DNA of 64,000 nucleotides from a virus, in IMG/VR virus record IMGVR_UViG_3300042306_000227, positions 1-64,000 of that record; one strand, written 5' to 3'. Under the pieces are notes generated by a model, which did no database searches, was not told where the DNA came from, and saw only the letters and a program-made list of their open reading frames with translations. How positions within the stretch are numbered: position 1 is the stretch's first letter; every line of letters begins with the position of its first letter. The position numbers and the translations under genes are program-made. Of the stretch, positions 39,054 to 57,301 are shown piece by piece.

Positions 39054-42000
39054 ATGTCTAAAAGATTCTTAAGTGGAATAAATGTAACTGGTTCAGCTGC
39101 CCTTAATACGGTGGCTGATGCAGGTTCTAATACAGACAAGTTTCTCGTATTAGACTCAAGTAATGTGGTGTCATATAGAACTGCTGCTGAATTATATGCT
39201 GACTTAGGAATAGGTTCTTTACCTTCTGGATATACTTCTACTTTAAAACATGAAGTAAAGGCTGGACAGACAATAAGCAAAGGACAAGCTGTTTATGTAT
39301 CATCTTCGGATGGTACTAATATGATTATATCAAAAGCATCAAATGTGTCAGAAGCAACTTCTTCTAAGACAATGGGATTGCTTGAAACTAGCTTGTCTAC
39401 TAATGGTAAAGGAAATGTAATTACAGAAGGTTTACTTGCAGGATTGAATACAAATGGAGCTACTGCTGGAGACCCAGTATGGTTAGGGGTAGATGGAGCT
39501 TTAATCTTTGGATTAGCCAACAAGCCTTACGCTCCTGCTCACTTGGTATTTATAGGTATCGTAACTAGAGCTAACGCTAATAACGGAGAAATCTTTGTTA
39601 AAGTGCAGAATGGGTTTGAGCTTAAAGAAATTCATGATATTGATTTAATTACAACTACTCCTATTGATGGTCATATATTAGGATACAACGGAACATTATG
39701 GGTAAATAAAACAATCGCAGGATGGTTGGGATATACTCCAGCAAATGATGCTTCAGTAGTTAAACTATCTGGCGCACAGACAGTTGGTGGTTTAAAAACA
39801 TTCAGTGCAAGTATTATTGCAAATATTGGTGTTTTATTAAAAAATGGTGCTGTATCAGCTTTAAATGGTTATACAGCAATAGGTGGTTCTTCAAGTAATG
39901 GGATTGAAATTGTTTTTAGTCCAGGTGGTTCTACTCAAAGTTTGTTATTTCAAACTTCTGCTGCTTATTCTTATACATTCCCTACTGCTACAGGTACTAT
40001 AGCATTAACAAGTGATTTAAATTCTTATGTTCCTAATACAAGAACACTTACGATTAACGGAACCACTTACGATTTAAGTGCAAATAGGTCTTGGACTATA
40101 TCTGCAAATCAGAATGCAAGAACAGAATACGAGTTTACTACGAATGGCTCTACAGCTACATATACGGCTACTTATTCTGTAGGGCAGGTTGATGTCTTTT
40201 ATAATGGTTCTAAATTATCATCTGCAGAGTTTACAGCTACAAATGGAACTAGCGTTACTTTAGCATTTACTCCTCCAAGTGGACAGGTTGTTGAAGTAGT
40301 AGCTTGGGAGACTGGTGGAGGTATTTCTAATAGCAGAACACTTACAATAAATGGTACTGCTTATGATTTATCTGCTAATAGAAGCTGGACAATTGATAAT
40401 GCAAGTTTAGGAGCACAGCCTCAGCTAAATGGTACTGGTTTTGTAAAAGTATCAGGAACAACTGTTTCTTATGACAATAGTACATACTTAACAACAAGTT
40501 CTGCTCTTAGTACTTACATGCCTTTATCTGGTGGTATTTTTACAGGAACTACAAGGATGGATGGAAGCGGTGGAACTACTCCATCAATTACAATGATTTT
40601 TAATTCAGGCATTAATAGACTATTAGCGCCTCTTTTAAGATTGTATGGAGCAACAAATGAAACTTCAAACTATGTTGAATTGTTTGGCTCTCTTGCAACA
40701 CAAAATAGAACAATACAATTACCTGATGCGAGTGGGACAATTGCACTAACATCAAACCTATCATCTTACTTACCATTATCTGGTGGTACGCTTACTGGTG
40801 CATTGAGCGGAACAAGTGCTACATTTTCAAGTACTGTAACTGGCTCTAGATTCAATTCAGGAGGTGCAGGATATAGAATAACAGCGTTTGGCACATTAAG
40901 TCAAACGGTATCAGGCGAAATGACTATTTTAGGTCATAATGTTGTAGCTGACCAATCTGCTGCAAACACCGTAACTGTGTTGAATGGTGGGTGGTATTCA
41001 TCTATGATTAAAATGTATTACAATGAAGGTATAACTTTCCATACAAGCGAAACAGTATTTTCTGCAAATGCTATCTATCCTATGGCATCTACCGAAAGAA
41101 TAAGGATAACAAACGGTGGGACTTTAGGCATTGCAACTTCAAGCCCTATCGGTGGTGTATTCAAATTACAAGTAGGTGATGGTAGCGCTGATACAAGAGC
41201 AATTATTGTTTCAAATCAAGTTTATCAATTAGGATTTAGAAATGGTGCTGGAAGTCCAGTGTTTTATGAGGGCAGTGATACAAGTGGTAATAAAATATTC
41301 TCAAATAATGCTGGAAGCGAGTTAATGAGAATTACAACTAATGGCCATTTTTGTATTGGTACGATAAGCCCTGTTAGCTTAGGTGGAAGTTTAGGTCTTA
41401 CAATGGGTACTACAACTTCAGGTAGGAATATAGTTTTATATTCATCTAGTAATGGGAACAATGGATTAATTCAATTTATAGATTTAAATGGCAATGATGG
41501 TTTGCAAATAGGTTCTAGCACAGTTGATAGTTATTTTTATAGCTATCGTGATAAACCAATGGAATTTTTTACTAATGGAACTAAAAGAGTAACAATACAA
41601 GGTGATGGCCAAACAAGATTTCAAAGTTCAATTATTCTTACAAATGGACAAATAAACTCTTTAGGTACAGGAGGTGGCGGACAGCCTATGTATTTAAACT
41701 TTGCTGGTAACGGAGCAGTATATGCAGGTAGCTCTTACGCAGTATTGTATGCTGGTTCTGATAGAAGAATTAAATCAAATATTGAAAACGCTGAACCTAC
41801 TCTTAACAAAATATTAGGCTTAACGCCAAGAACTTTTAAGTATAAGGAAAGACCAGAGTTTACTAACTACGGATTCATTGCTCAAGAGCTAGAGGAGATT
41901 ATGCCTGAATTAGTTAAAACTTCTGAAGGTATTACAATTTGTAATGGGGAAGAAATAGTAAATCAAAAAAGTATTGAAAGTTATGGTTTAGCTTGGGCAT

Positions 42001-42083
42001 CAATTTTAGTAAAGGCGATGCAAGAACAACAAGACCTAATAACTGAACTAACAGAAAAAGTAAACGCATTAGAGAATAAATAA
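39054..42083 (+). CDS. long tail fibre with C-terminal S74 intramolecular chaperone, 1009 aa
   Basis: Residues about 900-1009 carry an endosialidase-type intramolecular chaperone (peptidase S74): 'DRRIKSNIENAEPTLNKILGLTPRTFKYKE', then 'YGFIAQELEEIMPELV' and a C-terminal coiled coil. Such domains fold the trimeric fibre and cleave themselves off. The body has two copies of the TINGxxYDLSANRSW motif (near 40044 and 40335) and a 'VDVFYNGSKL' module shared with the protein at 36863. The N-terminus shows no recognised anchor. It is the first of three S74 fibres. Confidence 0.75.
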   Translation: MSKRFLSGINVTGSAALNTVADAGSNTDKFLVLDSSNVVSYRTAAELYADLGIGSLPSGYTSTLKHEVKAGQTISKGQAVYVSSSDGTNMIISKASNVSEATSSKTMGLLETSLSTNGKGNVITEGLLAGLNTNGATAGDPVWLGVDGALIFGLANKPYAPAHLVFIGIVTRANANNGEIFVKVQNGFELKEIHDIDLITTTPIDGHILGYNGTLWVNKTIAGWLGYTPANDASVVKLSGAQTVGGLKTFSASIIANIGVLLKNGAVSALNGYTAIGGSSSNGIEIVFSPGGSTQSLLFQTSAAYSYTFPTATGTIALTSDLNSYVPNTRTLTINGTTYDLSANRSWTISANQNARTEYEFTTNGSTATYTATYSVGQVDVFYNGSKLSSAEFTATNGTSVTLAFTPPSGQVVEVVAWETGGGISNSRTLTINGTAYDLSANRSWTIDNASLGAQPQLNGTGFVKVSGTTVSYDNSTYLTTSSALSTYMPLSGGIFTGTTRMDGSGGTTPSITMIFNSGINRLLAPLLRLYGATNETSNYVELFGSLATQNRTIQLPDASGTIALTSNLSSYLPLSGGTLTGALSGTSATFSSTVTGSRFNSGGAGYRITAFGTLSQTVSGEMTILGHNVVADQSAANTVTVLNGGWYSSMIKMYYNEGITFHTSETVFSANAIYPMASTERIRITNGGTLGIATSSPIGGVFKLQVGDGSADTRAIIVSNQVYQLGFRNGAGSPVFYEGSDTSGNKIFSNNAGSELMRITTNGHFCIGTISPVSLGGSLGLTMGTTTSGRNIVLYSSSNGNNGLIQFIDLNGNDGLQIGSSTVDSYFYSYRDKPMEFFTNGTKRVTIQGDGQTRFQSSIILTNGQINSLGTGGGGQPMYLNFAGNGAVYAGSSYAVLYAGSDRRIKSNIENAEPTLNKILGLTPRTFKYKERPEFTNYGFIAQELEEIMPELVKTSEGITICNGEEIVNQKSIESYGLAWASILVKAMQEQQDLITELTEKVNALENK

Positions 42084-42086
42084 TAA

Positions 42087-42094
42087 TAACTTTG
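42087..42094 (+). promoter_or_regulatory. TAACTTTG box 4 nt before the second fibre ATG
   Basis: TAnnTTTG match ending at 42094, with the ATG at 42099, so the transcript may start at or very near the start codon. Confidence 0.6.
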
Positions 42095-42098
42095 TATA

Positions 42099-44768
42099 AT
42101 GGGTAAGACAAAAGATTTAGGACACTTAGCACACATAGTAGTATACGATGCAGAAAACCATATAACAGTTCCTGCTGGAATTACTATGCATACAAATCAG
42201 CTAGTAGCATCCCAAGCATGGGTAACTACAGCTTTGGGTTCTTATGCATTGTCATCTGCTCTAGGTTCATATGTGCCTACATCTAGGACTATAACAATAA
42301 ATGGTACAACATTTGATTTAAGCGCTAATAGAAGCTGGGATATAACTTCAATGATATATCCTGCTGCTGGTATTGCTTTGTCTACAGGTACAGGATGGGG
42401 TACTTCTATAACCAATAACTCAGGTAACTGGAATACAGCTTTTGGATGGGGTAATCACGCTTCAGCGGGGTACTTGACAGGAATAACTTCTACTCAAGTA
42501 ACGACAGCTTTAGGGTTTACTCCTGTAACAAATGCTAGAACTATTACAATTAATGGGACGGCATATGATTTGAGTACAGACAGGAGTTGGACTGTAAGTG
42601 GAACAGATAGTACTAAACTCCCCTTAGCTGGTGGCACAATGACTGGAAGTATTGAAATGGCTACTTCTGGAACTAGTTATATTAGAATGGGTAGATTTCC
42701 TAATTCAACATCAAATGGCGGTGAGGCTTGGATAGGTAGAGCTTCTGACAGAAGTGCTGGTACTATGACTGTTCAATTAGGTTCTGCAAATAGTTCATTT
42801 TTTGAAGTAGTTGATTATGGTTGGACTACAGTTACTTTAAAAGTAGGAATGAATGATTTTTCTTATAAGGGGAATGCTGTAATTCACGCTGGTAATATTG
42901 GTTCTCAATCAGTATCAACTGCAAGTGCTGCATCTAGTGCAACCTTTTTAACACAAGCTAATGCTACATGGGGAGCTAGACTACAAATAGGGGGTAATGG
43001 TGACCCAGGAGCTATTGCTAATATAGCTGTTGTTCAAGCTACAGATGGTAATTTACACATGGATAGCGGTACTGGCAAATCCATGTATTTAAATTATTAT
43101 CGTAATGGAGTAATATATTTAAATGGAGCTACTTATTATATTAGTTCTAATGGAGCTAATTATAATGGAACAGCTGCGAATGCAGGTAATGCTGATACAC
43201 TGGATGGATATCATGGTTCAAATTATCCTGGTAAAAATGGCAATACTTATTATCAAGTAGAAACATGGCTTCAATTAACAGGAGTTCATGGATTATACTG
43301 CCCTTCTGTAAATAATGCTCACTTATACCCAAATGATGCTTCTTATGGAGCTTGGAGAATATCAGGAACTAGAAATGGATGGAATGGTATTCATTTTGGA
43401 GGTGGTAATGGCATGACTCTAATGATGAATGAAACAGAGTTTGGATTTCATAGAGAAGGTATTGGATGGTCAGCTAGATTTACAAGCGGTACTGGTCATT
43501 TTAATATATCAGGTAGTGCAGCAAGTGCTAGTAGCGCTAGCTCAGCTACTTCTGCGGAATATTTCCCAACAGCATATGTTGGAGGTCAGCAAACTAATCC
43601 TCAAGTTTATTTTAATAATGGAATTGGCTTAAAGGCTGCAATGACAGGTGCTTGGTCTGTATGGTCTGATACATTATGGGTTAATGGATATTCTGGTGGT
43701 GATGTCCCTTGGATGTGCGCACTTCACTTTTTAAGAAATAGTGAACCAAGATTTGCTATTAGTGCGCAACAAAGGCAAAGTACAAGTTATGGCTCTTTTT
43801 ATGAAGTAATTACATCTTATAATATTGCATCTCAAACAGTTGCTAATTTATCAGGATTTAATAAGAGTGAACCAACATTTGCAAATGTGTATAATACTGG
43901 ATGGTTTAGAAACTATGCGGATAGTGGATTATATAACCAAGACTATGGATGTCATTTGGTTAGAAACGGTCAATCATCTCATGGTGCTTGGTCTATTTTT
44001 GGATATACTAAAGCTGGGTATATTGGTATGAACTTAAGAGACCCTCAGACTTACAATAATAACCTGATGTACGAGAATGGCAACGGAGGCATGTATACAG
44101 AAAATGCAAACGGTTGGCAATGGTATTATAACAGAGGTTCAAACTGTTTAGGTCTTGGAGGCTCTACTACATACAACTGGGTTAGAGCTGTTGTAAATGG
44201 TAAACTTAAAATTGAATCTGATTCTATCCATACAGGATGGGCATATTTTGATAGCAATCTTCAACTTGCTGGTGGTGGTAATATTCTTTACAACGAATAT
44301 AATCTTTGGTATGTATGGAGAAACTGGGGGGGATGGGGTGGAGAATGGATTAATCGTAATGGTGGTGATATGATTATGAACCTATATGCTGTTTATGCAG
44401 TGACAGGTAGCGTATCGGATATTAGGTACAAAAAAGATATTACACCTTTATCGTATGGATTGAATGAAATCATGCAAATGAATCCGATTAAGTATCATTA
44501 CAACTTACCTAAAGAATCAATGTTAGCTAACGACCCTGATTACTTCTTAGGATTTTCTGCACAAGAAATGCAAAATATTATTCCAGAAGCTGTTCACGAA
44601 AAGATGGGAGATTCATCAGAGACTATGACTGGCATGCTTGCAATCACTATGGATGAGATAATACCTGTATTAGTGAATGGCATAAAAGAGCAACAAGTAA
44701 TGATACGCAACCAAAATAATAAAATCAATAAACTAGAAGCACTAGTAAACCAACTATTAAATAATTAA
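42099..44768 (+). CDS. long tail fibre with C-terminal S74 intramolecular chaperone, 889 aa
   Basis: The S74 domain begins near residue 774 ('DIRYKKDITPLSYGLNEIMQMNP', 'YFLGFSAQEMQNIIPEAV'). The N-terminal 60 residues resemble those of the third fibre ('L..IVVYDAENHITVPAGI'), probably the virion-attachment part. Two TINGxxxDLS motifs (near 42286 and 42538) and the segment 'GTGWGTSITNNSGNWNTAF' are shared with the 45772 fibre. Between these lies a unique glycine/aromatic-rich receptor-binding region. Confidence 0.75.
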   Translation: MGKTKDLGHLAHIVVYDAENHITVPAGITMHTNQLVASQAWVTTALGSYALSSALGSYVPTSRTITINGTTFDLSANRSWDITSMIYPAAGIALSTGTGWGTSITNNSGNWNTAFGWGNHASAGYLTGITSTQVTTALGFTPVTNARTITINGTAYDLSTDRSWTVSGTDSTKLPLAGGTMTGSIEMATSGTSYIRMGRFPNSTSNGGEAWIGRASDRSAGTMTVQLGSANSSFFEVVDYGWTTVTLKVGMNDFSYKGNAVIHAGNIGSQSVSTASAASSATFLTQANATWGARLQIGGNGDPGAIANIAVVQATDGNLHMDSGTGKSMYLNYYRNGVIYLNGATYYISSNGANYNGTAANAGNADTLDGYHGSNYPGKNGNTYYQVETWLQLTGVHGLYCPSVNNAHLYPNDASYGAWRISGTRNGWNGIHFGGGNGMTLMMNETEFGFHREGIGWSARFTSGTGHFNISGSAASASSASSATSAEYFPTAYVGGQQTNPQVYFNNGIGLKAAMTGAWSVWSDTLWVNGYSGGDVPWMCALHFLRNSEPRFAISAQQRQSTSYGSFYEVITSYNIASQTVANLSGFNKSEPTFANVYNTGWFRNYADSGLYNQDYGCHLVRNGQSSHGAWSIFGYTKAGYIGMNLRDPQTYNNNLMYENGNGGMYTENANGWQWYYNRGSNCLGLGGSTTYNWVRAVVNGKLKIESDSIHTGWAYFDSNLQLAGGGNILYNEYNLWYVWRNWGGWGGEWINRNGGDMIMNLYAVYAVTGSVSDIRYKKDITPLSYGLNEIMQMNPIKYHYNLPKESMLANDPDYFLGFSAQEMQNIIPEAVHEKMGDSSETMTGMLAITMDEIIPVLVNGIKEQQVMIRNQNNKINKLEALVNQLLNN

Positions 44769-44770
44769 TT

Positions 44771-45244
44771 ATGGCATACAAAATAAACAAAGAAATAGTA
44801 ACATCTAAGGGTGTTACATCTGAGGCTTACGTAAGAATATCTAAGTATGAAATTGATAAAGCTGGTGATGCTAGCTTTAAGATTGAAGTATTTTTAAATC
44901 AAGAATCTTCTACAACAGTAGATGGTGGATTGTTTAATCCTGCTTCTGCAACAATTGCAGATATAGGCCCTTATGTTGTAGTACCTCTTAAAAAAACTAT
45001 ACAAGTAGCTGTGCCAAATAAAAGAACAGAAGTGGTAGATGTCCCAGAAGAACTAGACGAGGAGGGTAATGTAATTAAGATGGCTACAAAACAATACGTT
45101 GAATTTGAAGGGGAAGATTTGGTTGATAGAACTGTACCTGATTTAACTCCTGTAGAAAATGGAACTGTTTTTGAGTTTGGTTATGCTAAATTAAGAGATG
45201 TATTAGTATCTTTGTACGGAGAGGAAAATATTGAAATTGTATAA
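44771..45244 (+). CDS. small fibre-associated protein, paralogue of next gene, 157 aa
   Basis: Shares its layout with the 45263 gene: 'K.VTSEAYVRISKYEIDKAGDASFKIEVF' against 'KGITSEAYVRIADYQVSKYGSASFRIELF', and a common ending 'VPDLTP.E...FEFGYAKLRDVL'. It is a beta-rich domain. It sits between two S74 fibres, so it is probably a fibre partner, cap or chaperone. Family unknown. Confidence 0.6.
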   Translation: MAYKINKEIVTSKGVTSEAYVRISKYEIDKAGDASFKIEVFLNQESSTTVDGGLFNPASATIADIGPYVVVPLKKTIQVAVPNKRTEVVDVPEELDEEGNVIKMATKQYVEFEGEDLVDRTVPDLTPVENGTVFEFGYAKLRDVLVSLYGEENIEIV

Positions 45245-45262
45245 TATTTAAATAAACAAATA

Positions 45263-45748
45263 ATGGCATTAAAAATCACAACACAGATTGGTACAGACAA
45301 AGGTATCACATCTGAGGCTTACGTAAGAATCGCAGACTATCAAGTATCTAAGTACGGTAGTGCTAGCTTTAGAATTGAATTATTCCAAACTCAGGCTGAC
45401 TCAGTAGTTACTAATGGTATGATGTATCCGACCCCTTCTACTGGCGGCCAGGCTCGTAACCAACAAGTAGGTGATAACCTATGGGTTGCTATGACTAAAG
45501 AAGTAGAAGCTACAAGAACAGTACAAAGAAATGTAGAAGTAGTAACAGACGCTGTTTTAGATTCAGAGGGAGAGGTTATAACTCCTGCAAGTTCTACTTG
45601 GGAAATGCAAGATGTGGAAGAAACATACACAGCTACAGTTCCTGACTTGACTCCTTTAGAAGACGAGACTATCTTTGAATTCGGCTATGCTAAGCTTAAA
45701 GATAAATTAGTAGGATTATTTGGAGCTGAGAACGTAGTAGATTGTTAG
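45263..45748 (+). CDS. small fibre-associated protein, paralogue of previous gene, 161 aa
   Basis: A tandem duplicate of the 44771 gene. The first ~30 residues and the last 35 align clearly, and the middle ('TNGMMYPTPSTGGQARNQQVG') differs. It ends directly before a promoter box that starts the third fibre. The two copies may each serve one neighbouring fibre. Confidence 0.6.
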   Translation: MALKITTQIGTDKGITSEAYVRIADYQVSKYGSASFRIELFQTQADSVVTNGMMYPTPSTGGQARNQQVGDNLWVAMTKEVEATRTVQRNVEVVTDAVLDSEGEVITPASSTWEMQDVEETYTATVPDLTPLEDETIFEFGYAKLKDKLVGLFGAENVVDC

Positions 45749-45756
45749 TATCTTTG
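45749..45756 (+). promoter_or_regulatory. TATCTTTG promoter box before the third fibre
   Basis: TAnnTTTG match 15 nt before the ATG at 45772. It overlaps the last base of the preceding stop codon. Confidence 0.6.
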
Positions 45757-45771
45757 CTTAAATAGTAAGCA

Positions 45772-48486
45772 ATGAGTTTAAAAGCAATAGATACTGGTTT
45801 TCTCAGGAATTTAGTTTCATACGATAATATAGGTAACATTTCGTTACCTGCTAGTTTGTCTATTTTTGTCAATAAAGAAGTAGCTACAAAAGAATACGTA
45901 GACGCTCAGAATAGTGGTCAGGTTCTACAATCTAGAACTTTGACTATTAATGGGGTTACTTACGACCTTTCAGCAAATAGAAGTTGGACTATAGATTCTA
46001 TGGTATATCCGTCAGCAGGTATCGCTTTATCAAGTGGTACTGGCTGGGGAGCTTCTATTACAAATAATTCAGCAAATTGGAATACTGCGTTTGGATGGGG
46101 TAATCATGCTTTAGCTGGATACCTTACATCATTTACAGAGACAGACCCCACAGTCCCATCTCATGTAAAGGCTATTACTACAACTAAGATAAGCGATTGG
46201 GATGCTGCATTTGGATGGGGGAACCATGCATCTGCAGGTTATGAAATTGCGTCTAACAAATCAAATAATGCTGCTTTAGGAAACTCTAGTACGTTATATC
46301 CAACGCAAGCAGCAGTAAAATCTTATGTTGATTCTGCTGTGACTGGTGGAGTAAACATACAAGGTGATTGGAATGCAAATACCAATACTCCTAATATATC
46401 AGGCACTACTACTACTGGATTTACATGGAGGGTTTCCGTAGCTGGTTCAACTAATTTAGGTGGAATTACTACTTGGAATGTTAATGACTTAGCTGTTAAA
46501 ACAGCAGCTGGTTGGATTAAAATTGATAATAGTTCATCTGTTATTTCTGTATATGGTAGACAAGGTGTTGTTGTAGCTAATGCTGGGGATTATAATACAT
46601 CTCAAGTTACCGAAGCTGTTGGTAGTTTATACTTTACTACAGCTAGAGCTAGAGCGTCATTTAGCGCAGGCACAAATGTATCAATAGATGCAAATGGTGT
46701 AATTAGCTCAGTAAATACAACTTATAATAATTTTACCAGAACGGTTGCAGGCTTAGTGCCAAACCCAGGAGGCTCTTCAACTACTCGTTATTTAAGAGAG
46801 GATGGTACATGGGTAATACCACCTGATACAATTGTAACATCATTAGCATGGACTAGCATTACTAGTAGACCAACTAAATTATCTGACTTTACAAATGACT
46901 TAGGAAACTATGGTTCATTTTTAACAGCATACACTGACACATTAGCTACTGTTACAAATAGAGGAAATTCTACAGCACAAAATATAGTTTTTAGTAATGG
47001 AAGGAAGGGGCTTGTAGGTGTTTATGATGCTGCACAGACTCAAGCAATATTTGCTATGGGTGCTGCTTATGTTTTAGCAGATGGAGGTGCTTCAAATAAT
47101 ATAGGAAATCTTTACGGACTAGCTTGGTCATATAATCCAGACTACGGAGGCGCAGGTAATAATCCGCAATCAAAAGCAGGGTTAAATCATCAGTTATTGT
47201 TGATGCAAGCAGGTGTTACTACCGCAGCAATAGGTTCTGGTATATGGACAAGTGGAAATATATCTGCAGCTAATTTTAGTGGTTCACATAGTGGTACTTC
47301 TTCAGGAACAAATACAGGAGACCAAGTAAATATTAGTGGTAATGCTGCGACAGCGACGTCAGCTACATCAGCTACAATATCAACTTTTTTGTCATCTCCT
47401 GATGGAGATAGATTAGCAGGCAGTAAATTACCTAATGGTACTGTAAGAGCAATTAGGTTTGATTTTGCAAATGCAAACTCTATTACAGGTGCAACAGGAA
47501 ATTATGCAGGTGTAATGACTTATTCTCCTTGGGATGGTACTGTAGCTTCTACTGGAGACTCTTCATATCAATTAGCATTTATTAATGAAACAGGTGTTAA
47601 CGCAAGTGGAGCCCCTGGCCTTAGATTTAGAAATGGTATTGACTCAACTTGGAATGGTTGGACATCAATAATAACATCTTCTAATATAGGTTCTTATACA
47701 GCAGGTGGTGTTGCTTGGGGTAATGTGTCTGGAAGACCAACGGCATTAAGTCAATTTACAAATGATTTAGGGAACTATGGAGGCTGGGTTGTTAGAAGTG
47801 GCGACAGCATGAGTGGTAGACTTACTATTAATAGTGGGGGGAATAATTTGCCATTGCATGTTCTTTCTGTAGAACCTTATATACAACTTCAGGCAACAGG
47901 AGAAACGAATTCTACATCTTTTAGAATGTATCCTACAGGTGGTTTTAATGCTTCAATAGGTAATTACGCTACAGGGGAATTGTGCCTTGTTGCCGCAAAC
48001 AGCGAGGCTGTCTTTATTAACAGCAATAGCATACGTGTAAATAAATATAGATTTAATGGGAATGGCACATTATCTGGTAATGGATTAGTTGAAATTGTTG
48101 ATATGGCTAATGTTGGAATGGCAACACAAGCAAATTCATATAGATGGTATAGTGCTAATGCTGCTAATATATTAATGTCATTAAATACATCAGGACATCT
48201 TACTGCTAACGCATTCTTTGAAGCATCAGATATTAGATACAAAAATGTAACCGAGACTAATCCAGATATTAGTGGGCTTGGTATTGATGTGATTAAATTT
48301 ACTAGACACGGAAGTGATATAGTAAGATATGGTTATTCTGCACAGCAAGTGCAATCAGTTATACCAGATGCTGTAGAAGGTAAAGATGTACTAACTGTAA
48401 ACTATATGGATGTTCATACTTTAAAGATTGCATCTTTAGAAAGAAGAGTTAAAGAATTAGAAGAAAGACTAAAAAGCACATTATAA
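45772..48486 (+). CDS. long tail fibre with C-terminal S74 intramolecular chaperone, 904 aa
   Basis: The S74 domain starts near residue 820 ('DIRYKNVTETNPDISGLGIDVIKFTRH', 'YGYSAQQVQSVIPDAV') and ends in a coiled coil. Contents in order: an N-terminal segment like the second fibre, a TINGVTYDLSANRSW motif, 'SGTGWGASITNNSANWNTAFGWGNHA', a 'FGWGNHASAGY' repeat, a 'AVKSYVDSAV' linker, a 'GDWNANTNTPNISG' module, then unique sequence. It is thus a mosaic of modules found in its neighbours. Confidence 0.75.
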   Translation: MSLKAIDTGFLRNLVSYDNIGNISLPASLSIFVNKEVATKEYVDAQNSGQVLQSRTLTINGVTYDLSANRSWTIDSMVYPSAGIALSSGTGWGASITNNSANWNTAFGWGNHALAGYLTSFTETDPTVPSHVKAITTTKISDWDAAFGWGNHASAGYEIASNKSNNAALGNSSTLYPTQAAVKSYVDSAVTGGVNIQGDWNANTNTPNISGTTTTGFTWRVSVAGSTNLGGITTWNVNDLAVKTAAGWIKIDNSSSVISVYGRQGVVVANAGDYNTSQVTEAVGSLYFTTARARASFSAGTNVSIDANGVISSVNTTYNNFTRTVAGLVPNPGGSSTTRYLREDGTWVIPPDTIVTSLAWTSITSRPTKLSDFTNDLGNYGSFLTAYTDTLATVTNRGNSTAQNIVFSNGRKGLVGVYDAAQTQAIFAMGAAYVLADGGASNNIGNLYGLAWSYNPDYGGAGNNPQSKAGLNHQLLLMQAGVTTAAIGSGIWTSGNISAANFSGSHSGTSSGTNTGDQVNISGNAATATSATSATISTFLSSPDGDRLAGSKLPNGTVRAIRFDFANANSITGATGNYAGVMTYSPWDGTVASTGDSSYQLAFINETGVNASGAPGLRFRNGIDSTWNGWTSIITSSNIGSYTAGGVAWGNVSGRPTALSQFTNDLGNYGGWVVRSGDSMSGRLTINSGGNNLPLHVLSVEPYIQLQATGETNSTSFRMYPTGGFNASIGNYATGELCLVAANSEAVFINSNSIRVNKYRFNGNGTLSGNGLVEIVDMANVGMATQANSYRWYSANAANILMSLNTSGHLTANAFFEASDIRYKNVTETNPDISGLGIDVIKFTRHGSDIVRYGYSAQQVQSVIPDAVEGKDVLTVNYMDVHTLKIASLERRVKELEERLKSTL

Positions 48487-50143: not shown

Positions 50144-50608
50144 ATGAAGTACTTATTATATTTATTGTTAATATTGAGCACATCTAGTATGGCTCAAGAT
50201 GTGACTATATCTGTCCAAAACAGCATTAAATTAGGTGATTTGGCAGGTAATAGAAAAATAGAGTTTGGTGTAGCTAATATCATTGAAGAGATAATCCAAG
50301 AGAAAGGATACTCAATTAACCCAAAATCTAAAAATATTATCTTTGCCGAGTTGATTTATATGGATGTAGTGAAGACTAAAAGCAATCTATCAGTATTCCA
50401 TAAAGACAATACAGATGTCGTGATAAGAATCAAGGGGTATATTTCCAAAGACGGAAGTAAAAGCAAGCCAATCTTGGTAGAAGGTAGCGCATCCGAGGTG
50501 TCAACATCAACAATACTTGTCGGAACAGACGGCAAGTTCAATCAACAAAATTTAACAACTGCAATAAAAAAGGCTTGCTATGAACTTATTGAGAAAATTA
50601 ATCCTTAG
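50144..50608 (+). CDS. secreted protein with a CsgG-like fold pattern, 154 aa
   Basis: A signal peptide is visible: 'MKYLLYLLLILSTSSMAQ', cut after Ala-Gln in Bacteroidota style. The mature part has 'FGVANIIEEIIQEKGYSI', then 'VVIRIKGYISKDGSKSKP' and a closing 'KFNQQNLTTAIKKACYELIEKI'. The 53667 product has 'LGVANISMEYLENLNRF' and 'KFNQSTIGTATKKALDIA' in the same places, so the two are probably paralogues with the alpha/beta layout of CsgG. CsgG is the curli secretion channel of the outer membrane. This one is short, so it may be a partial or accessory form. First gene of the cassette. Confidence 0.55.
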   Translation: MKYLLYLLLILSTSSMAQDVTISVQNSIKLGDLAGNRKIEFGVANIIEEIIQEKGYSINPKSKNIIFAELIYMDVVKTKSNLSVFHKDNTDVVIRIKGYISKDGSKSKPILVEGSASEVSTSTILVGTDGKFNQQNLTTAIKKACYELIEKINP

Positions 50609-52226
50609 TCTTGTCACTATTTTTGGAATATTTGTGACAAATGCGCAGATTCCTACAATATATTTAGAAAAGTCTAATATAACTAAGAACATAAAGGACA
50701 CGTCTATCTTAAAGGGAGACACTGTTGATATGGTGGTTATGTATAAGGAGGAACTATCTTCTACCAGAACGCTATACTTTGACTTTCAGTATAACTATAG
50801 AACATTTACTATATTAGGTGTAACTAGTTTTAGTGGAGATAGTAGTGCTATGCCTGCAAATGCTACAATGAGTATTCAGAATAGCTTCCATCCAGGATTT
50901 ACCTATCAAAGAACAGCTCAAAATACAACAACAAATGGTTCACAGAACTATAACTATGCTAACTATACGTATTCACCAAGCAGCAATAATGCTATCCAAA
51001 GAATCTATACTACAGTTACTTCAAATAGTAATCTACGTAATGGGAAATATATCAGGATACGTATTAAGGTAAACGCAACTACAGCTGGAACAGCTTATGA
51101 TAGTTTGTATATGAACTTTGTATCTGGCTGGAAATCAGATGGTACTTATATTGATACGTATATGCCTCTACCTAAAAGCACATTCATAACACTAGACGCT
51201 AATGCTAATACTTTGGTTACTGGTAATATATATAAAAGTCCTTCTGTTCAGACTAATATCAAGTTTACCGACTCCGCTTCAGGAATATCTACTTTATTAT
51301 ATCCTGATGTAAATGGTGTTTTTAAAGCTTCTACGGAGCTTGCATCAAATAGAACATACAAAGTATCAGTTGGTATAGATAGTATCGCTAGTGTAGCTAA
51401 AAATGCTATTACGGTATCAGATGCTACAGCCGCCTTAAATGAGTTTGGTTCTGTTAACCTAAATGGCACTTTTAATAAGACTAACCTAAAGACAGGTGCT
51501 GCTTGGCTAGCTGCTGATGCTAACTATAATGGTTCTTTTGATGCTGCCGACCCATACTTGATATTGGCTCATGTGGCCAATACGCTGACAATGGTTCCTA
51601 ATATATACACATATAAAAGAGCTGATTTTAGTAAAGATACTTTACCAGTTCAGAATTTTATCTATTTCCGTACTACTACTGCCAATCAAGCATTAGATTT
51701 AAACTATCTAATTGCAGGTGATATTAATAGAAGCCATAGCTCACAGGTTGTAGCCACAGATGGAACAATCCAATCATTTTCATTGGTTAATACTCCAATA
51801 GTAAAAAAAGCTGTTTTAGTAAGCCTAGAAAATGCTGTGATTGAGTCTGATAATATATCTATACCTATGAATATCAATTCAGACGGATTAAGCTTATGCG
51901 GATTGCAGTTTGAGTTTGCATATGATGCAACTAAAATTCAGTTGCAAGAAATAAAGGCCAATACAAACGCATCTTGGCTAAACTTCTATACAAACGAGAA
52001 TGGGTATGTTAAGTTTGGTGGTATAGATAAGACTTTAAAAGAGCCTATATCTGGAACAACGATTCCATTTACAATTAAATTCAAGGCATTAACGCCTGGT
52101 GTTGATATAAATACTAATGTATGGGTAACAGATAATATGGATGCGTCTGATAACAGAGGTAATCAAGTTGGTATTAAGTTAAACACTGCACAGATTCGTT
52201 TAATCGGTATAAATAATTTTAAATAA
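50580..52226 (+). CDS. secreted dockerin- and cohesin-like protein, 548 aa
   Basis: The ATG overlaps the previous gene by 29 nt. A signal peptide occupies residues 1-22 (ending 'FVTNAQ'). The body is beta-rich. At 313-324 the loop D-A-N-Y-N-G-S-F-D-A-A-D fits a dockerin calcium loop (D, N, N, hydrophobic, D), and 'AGDINRSHSS' downstream looks like a second, weaker copy. The C-terminal ~110 residues ('LSLCGLQFEFAYDATKIQLQEIKAN', 'IPFTIKFKAL') resemble a cohesin-type sandwich. Known for the families: dockerins bind cohesins in surface complexes. Having both in a phage protein is unexpected. Inference: a protein displayed or exported by the infected cell. Confidence 0.55.
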   Translation: MNLLRKLILSLVTIFGIFVTNAQIPTIYLEKSNITKNIKDTSILKGDTVDMVVMYKEELSSTRTLYFDFQYNYRTFTILGVTSFSGDSSAMPANATMSIQNSFHPGFTYQRTAQNTTTNGSQNYNYANYTYSPSSNNAIQRIYTTVTSNSNLRNGKYIRIRIKVNATTAGTAYDSLYMNFVSGWKSDGTYIDTYMPLPKSTFITLDANANTLVTGNIYKSPSVQTNIKFTDSASGISTLLYPDVNGVFKASTELASNRTYKVSVGIDSIASVAKNAITVSDATAALNEFGSVNLNGTFNKTNLKTGAAWLAADANYNGSFDAADPYLILAHVANTLTMVPNIYTYKRADFSKDTLPVQNFIYFRTTTANQALDLNYLIAGDINRSHSSQVVATDGTIQSFSLVNTPIVKKAVLVSLENAVIESDNISIPMNINSDGLSLCGLQFEFAYDATKIQLQEIKANTNASWLNFYTNENGYVKFGGIDKTLKEPISGTTIPFTIKFKALTPGVDINTNVWVTDNMDASDNRGNQVGIKLNTAQIRLIGINNFK

Positions 52227-52579
52227 TGAAAAGAATCAGTATCATCACATGCTTAGTATTGCTTGTAGTATCATGCAAAAAAATACAATATTATCCAGAG
52301 CAACAAGCTAAAACACCTGAAAAACAGGGGTATGTTAATGTGTCTCCTGTACCTACATTAGGTCAAATCACAATGAGTTTTAACCTACAACCATCTATCA
52401 AGTATAATGTTACAATCAAGGATATGAGCGGTAAAGTTTACAAATCTTATGGGGTAAGCTCAATAGATGGCTTATTGGTAAAGCAGGATAACCTAACTGG
52501 ATTAGCAAGTGGAACATATGACTTAATTTTGATGAATATAAATGGCTCAGAAACTAGAACCCCAATAATTATAAAATAA
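52226..52579 (+). CDS. lipoprotein resembling a type IX secretion C-terminal sorting domain, 117 aa
   Basis: The lipobox 'LVVSC' sets Cys17 as the lipidated residue. The remaining 80 residues read as a T9SS type A sorting domain: a 'VSPVPTLGQITMSF' opening where the family has 'PNPxxGxxxI', 'YNVTIKDMSGKVYKSYG', then 'DNLTGLASGTYDLILMN' and a closing 'TPIIIK'. In that secretion system this domain directs cargo to the outer surface and is then removed. Here it stands almost alone behind a lipid anchor, which is unusual. Its ATG overlaps the stop of the preceding gene (TAATG). Confidence 0.6.
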   Translation: MKRISIITCLVLLVVSCKKIQYYPEQQAKTPEKQGYVNVSPVPTLGQITMSFNLQPSIKYNVTIKDMSGKVYKSYGVSSIDGLLVKQDNLTGLASGTYDLILMNINGSETRTPIIIK

Positions 52580-52585
52580 AATACA

Positions 52586-52885
52586 ATGGCAGAAGAACAA
52601 GAAAGCACAGGTAGTTCTATGAAAAATGTTATCATAGGATTCATTAGCACAATCACTCTAGGAGTAGGTGGTTGGATTACAACAAAATTAACAGGAGGAG
52701 ATGAGAAAGAAACCCCAACACAAACAGCGGCTCCAGTCATTAATATCAATCAAACGCAACAACAAGCTGCAGGAGGTGGTAAGACTGTTATCATTAAAGA
52801 AAAGGCGTCAGAACCTGCAAAGCCAGCTGCAACTCCTAAGAAAAAAGAGGGCGATGATTTTAAGGAAGAGGCTCCTAAATGGTAA
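52586..52885 (+). CDS. single-span membrane protein with Lys/Ala/Pro tail, 99 aa
   Basis: One helix 'NVIIGFISTITLGVGGWIT' (about 14-32), then a Gln/Thr-rich and Lys/Pro/Ala-rich tail. The N-terminus is short and acidic. A tail of this kind reaches across the periplasm or lines a pore. The gene could be a holin- or spanin-type element, but the order in the operon suggests an envelope protein. No family is firmly recognised. Confidence 0.5.
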   Translation: MAEEQESTGSSMKNVIIGFISTITLGVGGWITTKLTGGDEKETPTQTAAPVININQTQQQAAGGGKTVIIKEKASEPAKPAATPKKKEGDDFKEEAPKW

Positions 52886-52888
52886 TAT

Positions 52889-53032
52889 ATGGCAAAGAAG
52901 ACGTCAAAGCCTAAAGCGAAACGAAGTATTCGCTCAGGTGTTAAAAAGAGTAAATTAGTAAAACAAAATCAAGAAGTAATATATAACGTATGGACAACGC
53001 TAAACAGCCAACAGGTTTTAAAGAACTTTTAA
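52889..53032 (+). CDS. small basic protein, 47 aa
   Basis: ATG 52889 lies 3 nt after the previous stop and the frame ends at 53032, overlapping the next gene by 43 nt in another frame. The Lys/Arg-rich N-terminus 'MAKKTSKPKAKRSIRSGVKK' is followed by a neutral end. It would be a short cationic peptide. The overlap makes it uncertain whether it is expressed. Confidence 0.35.
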   Translation: MAKKTSKPKAKRSIRSGVKKSKLVKQNQEVIYNVWTTLNSQQVLKNF

Positions 53033-53553
53033 ACGCAATGATGGAACGCAGATGGTATATTACCGCTGCTGTTCTTGGTGGGTTTATTTTAATTATCGCA
53101 GGGATATTTGTAGCAGTATCTAACAATGCTTCTATGGCAGGGGAATGGAAAGAGTTATTAATGTTATTATTGGGTGCCTTTATTGGTAGCTATGGTAAGA
53201 TTATAGACTACTGGTTCTCTGATACAGACAAGGATAAAATGTTAGTACAGAAGATGGATGAAGAAGATGGTGTTTCTATGTCTCACACAAATGACATGAA
53301 AGAAACTAACAAGCCATTTGGCCCTACCATTCCTGATGCATTTGTTCAAGGAGCTGCTGCAGCTAGAGATTTAGCTGTTACAGAAAACAGACAAAACTTT
53401 GAACTTAAAAGAGACCAACAAGAACACGAACAAGAGATGGAGAAGTTAGAGTTTGAATACCAAGCACACAGACAATGTGAGCATGAGTGGGGAGATTCTG
53501 ACGGAGACGGAGAACTTGAGTGTCAAAAGTGTGGATTATTGAAAGATAAATAA
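52990..53553 (+). CDS. membrane protein with two helices and a C-terminal zinc ribbon, 187 aa
   Basis: Two hydrophobic segments (about 23-44 and 55-71, 'WKELLMLLLGAFIGSYGKII') are followed by a long charged helix and a zinc ribbon 'CEHEWGDSDGDGELECQKCG' (about 163-182). The 'DSDGDGE' between the cysteines also resembles an acidic calcium loop. I know no standard holin with such a tail, and it may be an unrecognised phage membrane protein. It lies before a pair of hairpins that ends this sub-operon. Confidence 0.5.
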   Translation: MDNAKQPTGFKELLNAMMERRWYITAAVLGGFILIIAGIFVAVSNNASMAGEWKELLMLLLGAFIGSYGKIIDYWFSDTDKDKMLVQKMDEEDGVSMSHTNDMKETNKPFGPTIPDAFVQGAAAARDLAVTENRQNFELKRDQQEHEQEMEKLEFEYQAHRQCEHEWGDSDGDGELECQKCGLLKDK

Positions 53554-53635: not shown

Positions 53636-53666
53636 GAGCGATAAGTATAATTTAAATGAGCGATAT

Positions 53667-54389
53667 ATGAAAATTATAAAATCTTGTTGTACCATAATTA
53701 TAATCCTTTGCTTTATTAATGGTCAAGCTCAGGTAGCGACAACTAAGACAGAGAACTATAAAGCTAGTTTTGAGACTAAGATTGACATCAGTCAGTACAT
53801 GGACTATGATGGGCCGACTATACCAATTCAAATACTTAAATGCGGAATAAATGACGAAATGTATGAAATGTATCCAGAACTTAAGGAAAAGAGGGTTGGT
53901 TTGGGCGTGGCAAACATCTCTATGGAGTACCTGGAAAACCTCAATCGCTTCACTTTCACGGAGGACAAGACTGAGATTAAGAATAGAATGGTTAAACAAT
54001 TCCAGGCCTCTCAAGCAGGAATTTCTCAAGATAAGTTGGATGGAAGAGGAAAGATTAGACTAGCACATTACTTTGTTGAGATTGAGTGCTATGATTATTC
54101 TGTTTCAGAAGATGAAGAGATTAGGGTAAAAGATGGCATTAAGGAGACTGTTGTCACAAGAATAGGATTACAGGTAAGATTTACGGATGCGCAGACAGGT
54201 GAAATCATAGCTGCATCTGGATTGGGAGAAGCTAAAACTACACGAGAAGCAAGCCTATTGAATGACGAGAATCTTAGTGAAGTTAAATTTAATCAGTCAA
54301 CGATAGGAACTGCAACAAAGAAAGCACTAGATATTGCGTGTGCTCGCATCCTATCAAGAATGATTAAAAAGAATGTATTCCCTAAATAA
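53667..54389 (+). CDS. CsgG-like outer-membrane secretion protein, 240 aa
   Basis: The start at ATG 53667 gives a clean signal peptide (MKIIKSCCTIIIILCFINGQAQ), and a longer reading would begin inside the terminator. The mature part shows 'RVGLGVANISMEYLENLNRFTFTED', the entry strand and helix of CsgG, then 'TRIGLQVRFTDAQTGEIIAASGLGEAKT' (the pore-side strands) and a closing 'FNQSTIGTATKKALDIA'. In bacteria CsgG forms a ring-shaped channel for curli subunits and is lipidated. Here the cleavage site looks like signal peptidase I and no lipobox is seen, which is odd. Pelagiphages are reported to carry curli-type csgG, so phages can hold this family. Confidence 0.65.
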   Translation: MKIIKSCCTIIIILCFINGQAQVATTKTENYKASFETKIDISQYMDYDGPTIPIQILKCGINDEMYEMYPELKEKRVGLGVANISMEYLENLNRFTFTEDKTEIKNRMVKQFQASQAGISQDKLDGRGKIRLAHYFVEIECYDYSVSEDEEIRVKDGIKETVVTRIGLQVRFTDAQTGEIIAASGLGEAKTTREASLLNDENLSEVKFNQSTIGTATKKALDIACARILSRMIKKNVFPK

Positions 54390-55611
54390 AACACTTTTTC
54401 GTACGATATTCTGTACACTTTTGACACTTTCATTGACGAGTGCAAAAGCGCAGATACTTACAAGTACATTTATAGACCCATGTAGCAAGAAGGTCACAGT
54501 CTTTGTAGTGCCAATTCAAGGTACTACAATTGTGTTTATGGGTAAGTCTAAATACATAACAGCTCAGGATGTAAAGTCAGGTGCTTTAATGACTTGGGTA
54601 AATCAAGTATACGCAGAGTATTCAGCGCCATGCCCTGTTACACAACTTACTCAACAATTAACACAGCAAACGGTAACAAATTCAGTTTCAGCAGCAGTAA
54701 GTTCAGCAGCATCAAGTGCCGCTGCGAGTGCTGCTAGCAGTGTAAGTGTTCCAACTCCTGCTCCTGCTCCTGCGCCATCTTCTGCACCTTCTAGCCAACC
54801 AACTTCCTCTCAGAGTGATGGTAGCTCTAGCTCTAGCTCGTCTCAGAATGATGGTAGTTCTAGCGAAAGCAGTTCTGAGTCCTCTGAAAGTAAATCTGAG
54901 AGTAAATCCGAGGATAAAAAAGAAGAAAAGAAAGAAGAGAAGAAAGAGGAAAAGAAAAAGTCTTCCGCAAAGGCAGGACAAACCCCATTGATTTTTTCGT
55001 CTGATTTGAGTGCGGTTCAGCAGTTTCAAGGTGACTTTAATTTAATGGCAAATTTAGGCGTTTCTAGAGCATCTATGGCAGGAGACGTGTCTTACGGCTC
55101 TACATTGACAATCTTCTCAAATTTAAGACAATTTGCCCTATCTACAAGGTATTCTAAGATGGATATTCAGAATGGGACTTTATGTGGCGTAGGGACAACT
55201 TCTTACACAATGGCATATAATGATGGAGGCATCATACATATACTAGGTAAATCATATGTAATGTCCCATAAGTCATACATTTATGGCTATGCCTTGACTA
55301 TTATTAATACATCTATCCCATTTGAGGCTGTAAAACAACAATTCTGGACTTCTTCTATAGTGTTATTTGGCATGAAGCCATACGTTTACAGCAAAAGATT
55401 GACTATAACACCAGAGGTTTTTTTAATGTCTAACCCACTGAGTTATACAAGTAAATCAAAGGATTTGACATCTATGAGTCAATTAAGCTACATATTAGGC
55501 TCATCATTTGACATAGCATTGTCTAAGAGATTTAGACTTGCAACTAATATTAAATACATGGGGCCGCTTCATACAATTGGATTGCAGTTAGGAACAAAGT
55601 TTAACCTATAG
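54373..55611 (+). CDS. secreted outer-membrane-barrel-like protein with low-complexity insert, 412 aa
   Basis: The ATG overlaps the end of the CsgG-like gene by 17 nt. A signal peptide ends 'SAKAQ'. Residues about 28-90 are a compact Cys-containing domain ('FIDPCSKKVTVFVVPIQGTTIVF', 'YAEYSAPCP'). Residues about 95-200 are low complexity: first Ala/Ser, then Pro/Ser, Ser/Glu, and Lys/Glu repeats 'EKKEEKKEEKK'. Residues about 210-412 are alternating strands ending 'GLQLGTKFNL', the kind of end outer-membrane barrels have. It resembles an anchor with a long exposed or periplasmic linker. Cotranslation with CsgG-like suggests that the two act together. Confidence 0.55.
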   Translation: MYSLNKTLFRTIFCTLLTLSLTSAKAQILTSTFIDPCSKKVTVFVVPIQGTTIVFMGKSKYITAQDVKSGALMTWVNQVYAEYSAPCPVTQLTQQLTQQTVTNSVSAAVSSAASSAAASAASSVSVPTPAPAPAPSSAPSSQPTSSQSDGSSSSSSSQNDGSSSESSSESSESKSESKSEDKKEEKKEEKKEEKKKSSAKAGQTPLIFSSDLSAVQQFQGDFNLMANLGVSRASMAGDVSYGSTLTIFSNLRQFALSTRYSKMDIQNGTLCGVGTTSYTMAYNDGGIIHILGKSYVMSHKSYIYGYALTIINTSIPFEAVKQQFWTSSIVLFGMKPYVYSKRLTITPEVFLMSNPLSYTSKSKDLTSMSQLSYILGSSFDIALSKRFRLATNIKYMGPLHTIGLQLGTKFNL

Positions 55612-55851: not shown

Positions 55852-56454
55852 ATGAAAAAGATATTACAGGGTGCTGTATTGGTGATAGTTGTCGGTCTTA
55901 TATTCTCAAAGATGACAGGGGTTAAAAACCCATTCTCGCCTAAGATAAAATATATTGCAGGTAAACCTTACGAGGTTATTAAGCATGAGATAGATACTGT
56001 TGACATTATTAAGACTAAGGTGATTACCAAACAAGGTAAGGACATCTACCACGATACGACAATCTTCGTGCAAGTCCCAATGAATGTAGACACATTAGAA
56101 ATTATTAAAATGTATTTCGCCAAGAATGTATACAAGGATACCTTACGTTTACCTGACAGCTTAGGATATGTTGTACTATTGGACACCATTAGTAAGAATA
56201 CGATTGAGTCTAGGATGTTCACAGCTAATGTGAAGCAAAGAACTATTAAAGAGACTACCATTGTTAAAGAGCTACCTAAGACCAAGTTATTTTGGGGTGT
56301 AGGAGCGTCATTTGACAAGGTAAACTTTGTAAACAACGTACAGGTAAATCTACTTTTAAATACAAAGTGTGATAAGCTATACAATGTAGGAGCAGGAATT
56401 GACATCAATAAGACACCGTTTGTTAACGCATCTATTTACTGGAAAATAAAATAA
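55852..56454 (+). CDS. membrane-anchored lysis-region protein (spanin-like candidate), 200 aa
   Basis: An N-terminal helix 'ILQGAVLVIVVGLIFSKMTG' anchors it. The long middle ('IKTKVITKQGKDIYHDTTIFVQVPMNVDTLEIIKMYF', 'LRLPDSLGYVVLLDTISK') is extended and repeats the T-I-x-V pattern, a layout I recall from lysis regions of other Bacteroidota phages. The C-terminal ~50 residues are beta strands that might insert in the outer membrane. This would span the envelope, as a spanin does, but no classical coiled coil is seen. It lies directly before holin and endolysin genes. Confidence 0.5.
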   Translation: MKKILQGAVLVIVVGLIFSKMTGVKNPFSPKIKYIAGKPYEVIKHEIDTVDIIKTKVITKQGKDIYHDTTIFVQVPMNVDTLEIIKMYFAKNVYKDTLRLPDSLGYVVLLDTISKNTIESRMFTANVKQRTIKETTIVKELPKTKLFWGVGASFDKVNFVNNVQVNLLLNTKCDKLYNVGAGIDINKTPFVNASIYWKIK

Positions 56455-56456
56455 TT

Positions 56457-56702
56457 ATGAAAGATTTTTTACTTAGAATGTTCAGCGATAAGTCTGACAT
56501 AAATCAAAAGGCTGTGTTAGGATTTGTATCGTTTCTGTTAATGGCTATATATGCCCTAACAGATGTGGTTACAGGAGCAATAGGAATTACGTTTGTTATT
56601 GAGCCTATAGTATTTAACGGATTGATGTACACAGCTTTGACTATGTGTGGCATCACAGGTGTAGAGGCTGTATTTGGTAACAAGAACATAAAAGATAAAT
56701 AA
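56457..56702 (+). CDS. holin candidate, 81 aa
   Basis: Two hydrophobic helices (about 18-41 and 47-72) with polar ends and a basic C-terminus, directly before the endolysin gene and sharing a base with its ATG (TAATG). Small size, helix hairpin and position are the usual marks of a holin. The sequence itself is not a recognised holin family. Confidence 0.65.
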   Translation: MKDFLLRMFSDKSDINQKAVLGFVSFLLMAIYALTDVVTGAIGITFVIEPIVFNGLMYTALTMCGITGVEAVFGNKNIKDK

Positions 56703-57301
56703 TGAATCTAGATAGATTAAAAGGTCACATCCCAGACTCAGTAATAAATCAGATACCAGAAGTGTCTACTAAATTTGGTGTTAATACTCCACAGAGATTA
56801 GCTCATTTCTTAGCTCAAACAGGTCATGAAAGTGGTGGGTTCAGAGTAACAACAGAGAATTTAAACTATAGCGCAAAAGGTTTGTGTGGTATTTTTAAGA
56901 AATACTTTACACCAGAAAGCGCACAAGAATATCAACGTAAGCCAGAAAAGATTGCTAATATTGTGTACGCAAACAGAATGGGTAATGGTAATCAGGCTAG
57001 TGGAGATGGGTTTAAGTTTCGTGGTAGAGGTTATATCCAATTAACAGGTAAAACTAACTACCAAGCATTTGATAAAACAGTAGAAGATAACATTGAAGCA
57101 AACCCTGATTTGGTTGCTACAAAATATCCTTTATTATCAGCTGCATGGTTTTGGAGTAAGAACGGATTAAATGCAATAGCTGATACAGGTGCAGGAGAAG
57201 ATGTGGTAACTAAAATTACAAAAAGGGTTAACGGAGGCACTATCGGTCTTGCTGATAGAATAGCTCATTTTAAAGAATATTATAATCTATTAAAAGCTTA
57301 A
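56702..57301 (+). CDS. endolysin, glycoside hydrolase family 19
   Basis: A single GH19 (chitinase-like lysozyme) domain of 199 residues. Catalytic Glu43 stands in 'QTGHESGGF', a second Glu52 in 'TTENLNYS', and 'FRGRGYIQLTGKTNY' and 'AWFWSKNGLN' are further family motifs. It cleaves peptidoglycan glycan chains. It has no signal peptide, so it needs the holin to reach the wall. The neighbouring genes are small membrane proteins, completing a lysis cassette. Confidence 0.9.
   Translation: MNLDRLKGHIPDSVINQIPEVSTKFGVNTPQRLAHFLAQTGHESGGFRVTTENLNYSAKGLCGIFKKYFTPESAQEYQRKPEKIANIVYANRMGNGNQASGDGFKFRGRGYIQLTGKTNYQAFDKTVEDNIEANPDLVATKYPLLSAAWFWSKNGLNAIADTGAGEDVVTKITKRVNGGTIGLADRIAHFKEYYNLLKA

Follow-up and report, generated by a model that had tools for sequence, protein, structure and literature searches.

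Cargo proteins of the type IX secretion system (T9SS) of Bacteroidota carry a Sec signal that is cut by signal peptidase I and a passenger in front of the sorting domain, their export depends on PorV and SprA, and they are cleaved by PorU. Type A sorting domains (TIGR04183/PF18962) are seven-strand Ig sandwiches at the extreme C-terminus of the protein. PorV and SprA bind them mainly by hydrophobic contacts, recognition being by shape and hydrophobic surface and not by fixed motifs, and a near-invariant, functionally important lysine lies close to their C-terminus (PMC10994853); efficient secretion requires the motif-E lysines (PMC10202324). We found one report of phage-encoded T9SS cargo, that of ‘Cryophage’, in which enzymes or a PA14 protein end in a fused type A domain and are presumed to use the host system (PMC7468147). 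Phage CsgG has been reported several times, and the curli-like CsgG/CsgF of pelagiphages and of Melnitz has been proposed as an outer-membrane pore tied to lysis (PMC9004378). Two further relatives in kind are DUF3244 of Bacteroides (PF11589; 3d33, 3sd2), small stand-alone Ig-like proteins that occur without a phage module, and gp015 of the cultured Flavobacterium phage immuto (NC_055915), a single fused 243-aa protein of cohesin and type A domain that has no lipid anchor.

The locus described here belongs to virus record IMGVR_UViG_3300042306_000227 (73,267 bases), the first 64,000 bases of which are the window, the whole stretch of DNA that was analysed. The major capsid protein of this virus shares about 24% identity with its counterpart in Cellulophaga phage phi38:1 (Pervagoviridae), which makes a Bacteroidota host likely. 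A domain with the profile, fold and C-terminal place of the type A family is encoded in the window, but it stands alone after a lipobox and lacks the motif-E lysine, whereas type A proteins have a Sec-I signal and a passenger; it is also a separate lipoprotein beside a cohesin protein, in contrast to the fused domains of Cryophage. A CsgG fold is encoded close by, as in the pelagiphages and Melnitz, but the window module adds the cohesin protein, the sorting-domain lipoprotein and further proteins of the envelope, CsgF was not recognised in it, and the host phylum differs. A stand-alone lipid-anchored sorting domain, its alternation between a fused and a separate state at a cohesin protein, and the pairing of cohesin with phage CsgG were not found in the open-licence literature; phage T9SS cargo and phage CsgG pores are each known, and the split, lipid-anchored arrangement is apparently undescribed.

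The lipoprotein and its sorting-like domain

The gene at 52226–52579 (+ strand, ATG start) encodes a protein of 117 aa in which a lipoprotein signal peptide (52226–52276, lipobox LVVSC, Cys17 codon at 52274–52276) is followed by a linker of about 17 residues (18–34) and by a single domain that runs to the last residue (aa 34–117, 52325–52576; seven strands, aa 36–116). Signal peptide, lipobox and Cys+1 are those of a bacterial lipoprotein, and Cys17 is present in all 58 members of the aligned family, five of which match the LPAM_1 profile; lipidation and an outer-membrane location are predicted from the sequence. Paired acidic residues after the Cys are absent in 54 of the 58, so there is no clear surface-export signal. 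The protein has four viral relatives (71–100% identity), and a wider alignment-based scan returned the same four loci only; tblastn against 50,697 phage records gave no match, the PDB sequences no usable match and the PHROG profiles nothing of weight. Against loci L003–L005 the sorting-like domain has a dN/dS of about 0.11 and is under purifying selection.

The original prediction had seen in this gene a lipoprotein built around a type A sorting domain, and had named beforehand a search with type A profiles, to be set against ordinary Ig-like or fibronectin-like domains; that search bears it out. TIGR04183 (NCBIfam, T9SS type A sorting domain) matches residues 39–117 over model positions 1–72 of 72, at 23.6 bits against a cut-off of 23 (E 3.7e-5), and so reaches residue 117 of 117, the extreme C-terminal position of sorting domains, while PF18962 scores 21.8 bits (E 2.3e-4), under its cut-off of 27, and no Ig-like or FN3 model in Pfam matches the protein at E ≤ 1. 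A control profile made only from the sorting domains of two bacterial genomes gives the window domain 19.1 bits, whereas none of its 2,000 shuffled versions exceeds 8.9, and over 3,411 ORFs of all loci its best 40 matches are all members of the lipoprotein family or C-termini of fused cohesins. Chance resemblance to a sorting domain was rejected on the shuffle control and the ORF search. The further claim that the whole chain after Cys17 follows the type A pattern is right for residues 39–117 but not for residues 18–34, which are linker, and the pattern, said to include the closing strand, is complete apart from the conserved lysine of that strand, where the protein has Thr112.

The AlphaFold2 model, built on the 58-member alignment (pLDDT 88.7 overall and about 96 over residues 36–117), is a seven-strand Ig-like beta sandwich. 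VIA-align matches it to the sorting domains of PorU (Z 10.8, 84 aligned, rmsd 2.0), mirolase (Z 10.2, 77 aligned, rmsd 1.9), NucA in the translocon (8glk; Z 10.0, 75 aligned, rmsd 2.2) and PorZ (Z 9.7), and to MG2 domains of complement C3 at Z up to 11.6. A PDB fold search alone was rejected as proof of a sorting domain, since MG2 and FN3-like domains score equally. Among viral models (BFVD), two of the top Foldseek matches, the second and the fourth, are phage proteins whose names refer to this sorting domain, and the top one, an unnamed protein of 243 aa, has the length of immuto gp015, from which we infer that it is gp015.

The lack of discrimination in the fold comparison, in which equally high scores (Z 11.6) go to the MG2 domains of C3 and alpha-2-macroglobulin, could be taken to mean that an ordinary Ig-like domain has come to resemble a sorting domain by convergence, and some relatives of the lipoprotein do match DUF3244 (14 of 58; fold Z 9.3), which the window protein itself does not, or FlgD_ig. 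The profile score of the window protein, however, lies over a curated cut-off and is backed by the shuffle control, and the fused homologues found at the same gene slot are unmistakable sorting domains; convergence is largely refuted and very improbable.

Many members of the family have nonetheless drifted from the T9SS signal. In a joint alignment Thr112 falls on the motif-E lysine position, probably that of the lysine described for type A domains (PMC10994853), with Arg111 adjacent, and the near-invariant lysine of TIGR04183 domains is thus missing; 25 of 32 bacterial sorting domains end in K-phi-phi (a lysine and then two hydrophobic residues), versus one of the 58 phage lipoproteins. At E ≤ 0.1, TIGR04183 matches 17 and PF18962 matches 16 of the 58, and many relatives have lost the sequence features of the sorting signal, the Cys and the length being kept. 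The layout differs from that of cargo as well, with a lipobox of invariant Cys and only the short linker in place of a signal peptidase I signal and passenger. A lost lysine and a drifting signal, together with an anchor that is never lost, are to be expected of a domain of sorting origin that has been retained for fold and anchor and not for export; Arg111, one residue off the lysine position, may still allow some T9SS recognition of the lipoprotein.

The cohesin gene and the slot behind it

Directly upstream lies the gene of a secreted cohesin protein of 548 aa with a Sec signal (50580–52226, + strand; PF00963 31.2 bits, cut-off 24.1), in which Pfam places a C-terminal cohesin domain at aa 424–525 (51849–52154, + strand). 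A pattern match tentatively marks a dockerin-like calcium-loop motif, DANYNGSFDAADPYLI, at aa 313–328 (51516–51563, + strand); the Pfam dockerin model does not reach its threshold on this protein. Dockerin-like motifs occur in 29 of 72 relatives of the cohesin protein versus one of 109 shuffled sequences, and self-association of the cohesin protein through cohesin and dockerin is conceivable.

The cohesin stop codon and the lipoprotein start share one base in the window (overlap −1), and across modules the two genes usually either overlap in this way or lie one base apart (+1). The copies in related phages that the original prediction proposed to look for do exist, the 58-member family recurring in Bacteroidota phage modules. 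The slot after the cohesin gene was surveyed in 60 sequence-distinct modules, taken mostly from the best 80 of at least 522 CsgG-like matches and not independent, several being near-identical: it holds one lipoprotein in 26, two in 27 and none in seven. In all seven lipoprotein-free modules, which represent about four lineages, the sorting domain is fused to the C-terminus of the cohesin protein, 3–12 bases before the gene of a transmembrane (TM) protein, so that across the 60 modules the domain is always present, either fused or separate. The end of the cohesin protein varies with the number of lipoproteins, an NNF-type C-terminus being found in 25 of the 26 single-lipoprotein modules and in none of the 27 double ones. 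The second tandem lipoprotein of the latter (loci L024–L087, e.g. L068:4329–4703) has a strongly conserved ending, ITDFNKL.

Immuto gp015 occupies the same module slot, and its cohesin and fused type A domain score 36.7 bits (Cohesin), 34.6 bits (PF18962) and 46.5 bits (TIGR04183); the fused cohesins of another group (L074) reach about 29 bits with TIGR04183. Ahead of the cohesin-sorting-domain gene, immuto also encodes a C-type lectin protein and another secreted protein, both with dockerin-like C-termini (L006:3737–4735 and L006:4808–5899), which suggests a displayed lectin complex.

The envelope module and its CsgG-fold protein

The gene order around the CsgG-like gene is recurrent. At the head of the module is a secreted 154-aa protein (50144–50608, + strand), conserved upstream of the cohesin gene, and after the cohesin gene and its one or two lipoproteins come a 99-aa single-TM protein (52586–52885, + strand), which is directly downstream of the lipoprotein, is found in 88 loci and is always next after the slot in the modules surveyed, and a 187-aa membrane protein with a zinc-ribbon-like C...CxxC at its C-terminus (52990–53553, + strand). 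These are followed by the CsgG-like protein and by a 412-aa secreted Ser/Lys-rich protein with a predicted beta-rich C-terminus (54373–55611, + strand), in which a PorV/PorP-like shuttle was sought and the C-terminal part gave no family match. The lysis genes close the series, with an 81-aa protein (56457–56702, + strand) that is holin-like in size and TM segment and an endolysin (56702–57301, + strand; phrog_181, E 4e-72). Before the holin-like gene, 55852–56454 encodes a 200-aa protein with an N-terminal TM segment and a beta-rich C-terminus, possibly a one-piece spanin. A search for defence families found none of weight. Elsewhere in the window, at 39054–48486, repeated TINGTTYDLSANRSWT blocks are common to three long tail-fibre-like proteins that also end alike at the C-terminus, a resemblance suggestive of duplication.

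CsgG is a nine-subunit outer-membrane pore. The secreted protein at 53667–54389 (+ strand) is, by its predicted fold, a member of the CsgG family: its AlphaFold2 model has a pLDDT of 77.9, and the best eight VIA rows are all CsgG (Z 10.7–11.5), in searches that used 53655–54389, four codons longer. It has no Pfam match, PF03783 not being reached, and is therefore probably unannotated in most phages, while an Ignavibacteriales relative 38% identical to it (L096) passes PF03783 at 28.6 versus 20.8 bits. At least 522 relatives are present in IMG/VR, and the CsgG-like protein that adjoins gp015 in immuto is 56% identical.

That the lipoprotein gene came from a host, which had also been suggested, is possible, with bacterial sorting domains as its close kin and a CsgG-like neighbour that has a bacterial relative, but among 199 genomes of the Flavobacterium family group a strong match to the lipoprotein came from one phage-like contig only. 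SprA and many sorting domains are present in two bacterial genomes that have CsgG-like relatives. On the Ignavibacteriales chromosome (L096:7935–15371) a CsgG lipoprotein, a second secreted protein, a transglutaminase-TPR protein and a 428-aa protein stand in a row, possibly a bacterial relative of the system that gave the phage its CsgG-like gene.

Anchor, cargo, decoy or lysis protein

We favour, at about even confidence, the view that the lipoprotein is a detached sorting domain with a new use, holding the cohesin protein at the outer membrane as an anchor or adaptor. The type A domain would once have stood at the C-terminus of the phage's secreted cohesin protein, as it still does in some relatives, and would then have passed into a separate gene with a lipoprotein signal, the direction (fission or fusion) being presumed. 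Sec would export the 117-aa protein, Cys17 would be lipidated and the Lol route would bring it to the outer membrane, where its Ig domain, on the linker of roughly 17 residues, would give the product of the overlapping upstream gene a fixed anchor or adaptor; anchor and cohesin protein may then sit in an envelope complex with the CsgG-fold protein, made beside the lysis genes. The slot rule, the gene overlap, the link between cohesin ending and lipoprotein number, the invariant Cys17 with purifying selection, the loss of the lysine, the drift from the signal in many members and the lack of a clear surface-export signal all argue for such an anchor. Physical binding of the two proteins is presumed from these features, and linked cohesin and lipoprotein genes can share ancestry without it. 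Of the two roles originally proposed, anchoring a partner is the better fit, with the upstream cohesin protein as that partner, whereas that of a decoy in the host secretion system does not hold up well. Candidate roles of the whole complex are outer-membrane opening at lysis, surface adhesion and exclusion of other phages; the first is reasonable but unproved, and is drawn from the position beside the holin-like and endolysin genes and from the lysis proposal for phage CsgG pores (PMC9004378).

Genuine use of the T9SS, with PorV and SprA recognising the domain and carrying the lipoprotein to the surface or delivering the cohesin protein in trans to the translocon, is unlikely. The TIGR04183 score over its cut-off, the ordinary cargo build of the fused relatives (Sec signal, passenger and sorting domain), the SprA and many sorting domains of the two bacterial genomes with CsgG-like relatives, and recognition by shape and hydrophobic surface (PMC10994853) are all consistent with it, but a lipobox without a passenger is unlike known cargo, the near-invariant lysine is absent, and only 16–17 of the 58 relatives match the profiles at E ≤ 0.1. 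We would give no better a chance to a T9SS cargo split in two genes, in which the lipid-anchored sorting domain would dock the cohesin/dockerin protein in trans to the host T9SS or to the phage CsgG-type pore, forming, late in infection, a phage-made protein layer or an outer-membrane opening. A free domain tethered beneath the outer membrane would also be near SprA, and the translocon-bound NucA domain (8glk) matches the model at Z 10.0, so a decoy or inhibitor could be imagined that plugs the T9SS translocon and stops, for example, the display of a receptor or gliding adhesin. Such a decoy should, however, retain the best-conserved contact, yet the motif-E lysine is not retained, in the fused relatives the domain rides on a passenger, quite the reverse of what a decoy does, and many modules encode a diverged pair with barely any profile match; we consider it improbable.

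In a two-component spanin an o-spanin lipoprotein is bound to a TM i-spanin across the periplasm. The lipoprotein might form a spanin-like pair with the 99-aa TM protein, of which it would be the outer-membrane half, or belong to an outer-membrane opener built on CsgG: the module directly precedes the holin-like and endolysin genes, the small lipoprotein with its proline-rich linker adjoins the TM protein, one family member bears a weak likeness to a spanin model (E 0.04), and a part in lysis has been proposed for phage CsgG pores (PMC9004378). The fused relatives, however, keep the TM gene without any lipoprotein, and 55852–56454 could fill the spanin role instead. The folded Ig domain does not resemble known o-spanins, which also counts against a lysis protein, and we regard this reading as quite unlikely.

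The window holds a recurrent, apparently undescribed envelope module of Bacteroidota phages that joins cohesin, a type A domain and a CsgG fold. Its fused-or-separate pattern is a natural experiment on the role of a sorting domain apart from its passenger, and the module hints at the ways in which Bacteroidota phages deal with the outer membrane, a poorly understood subject in this phylum.
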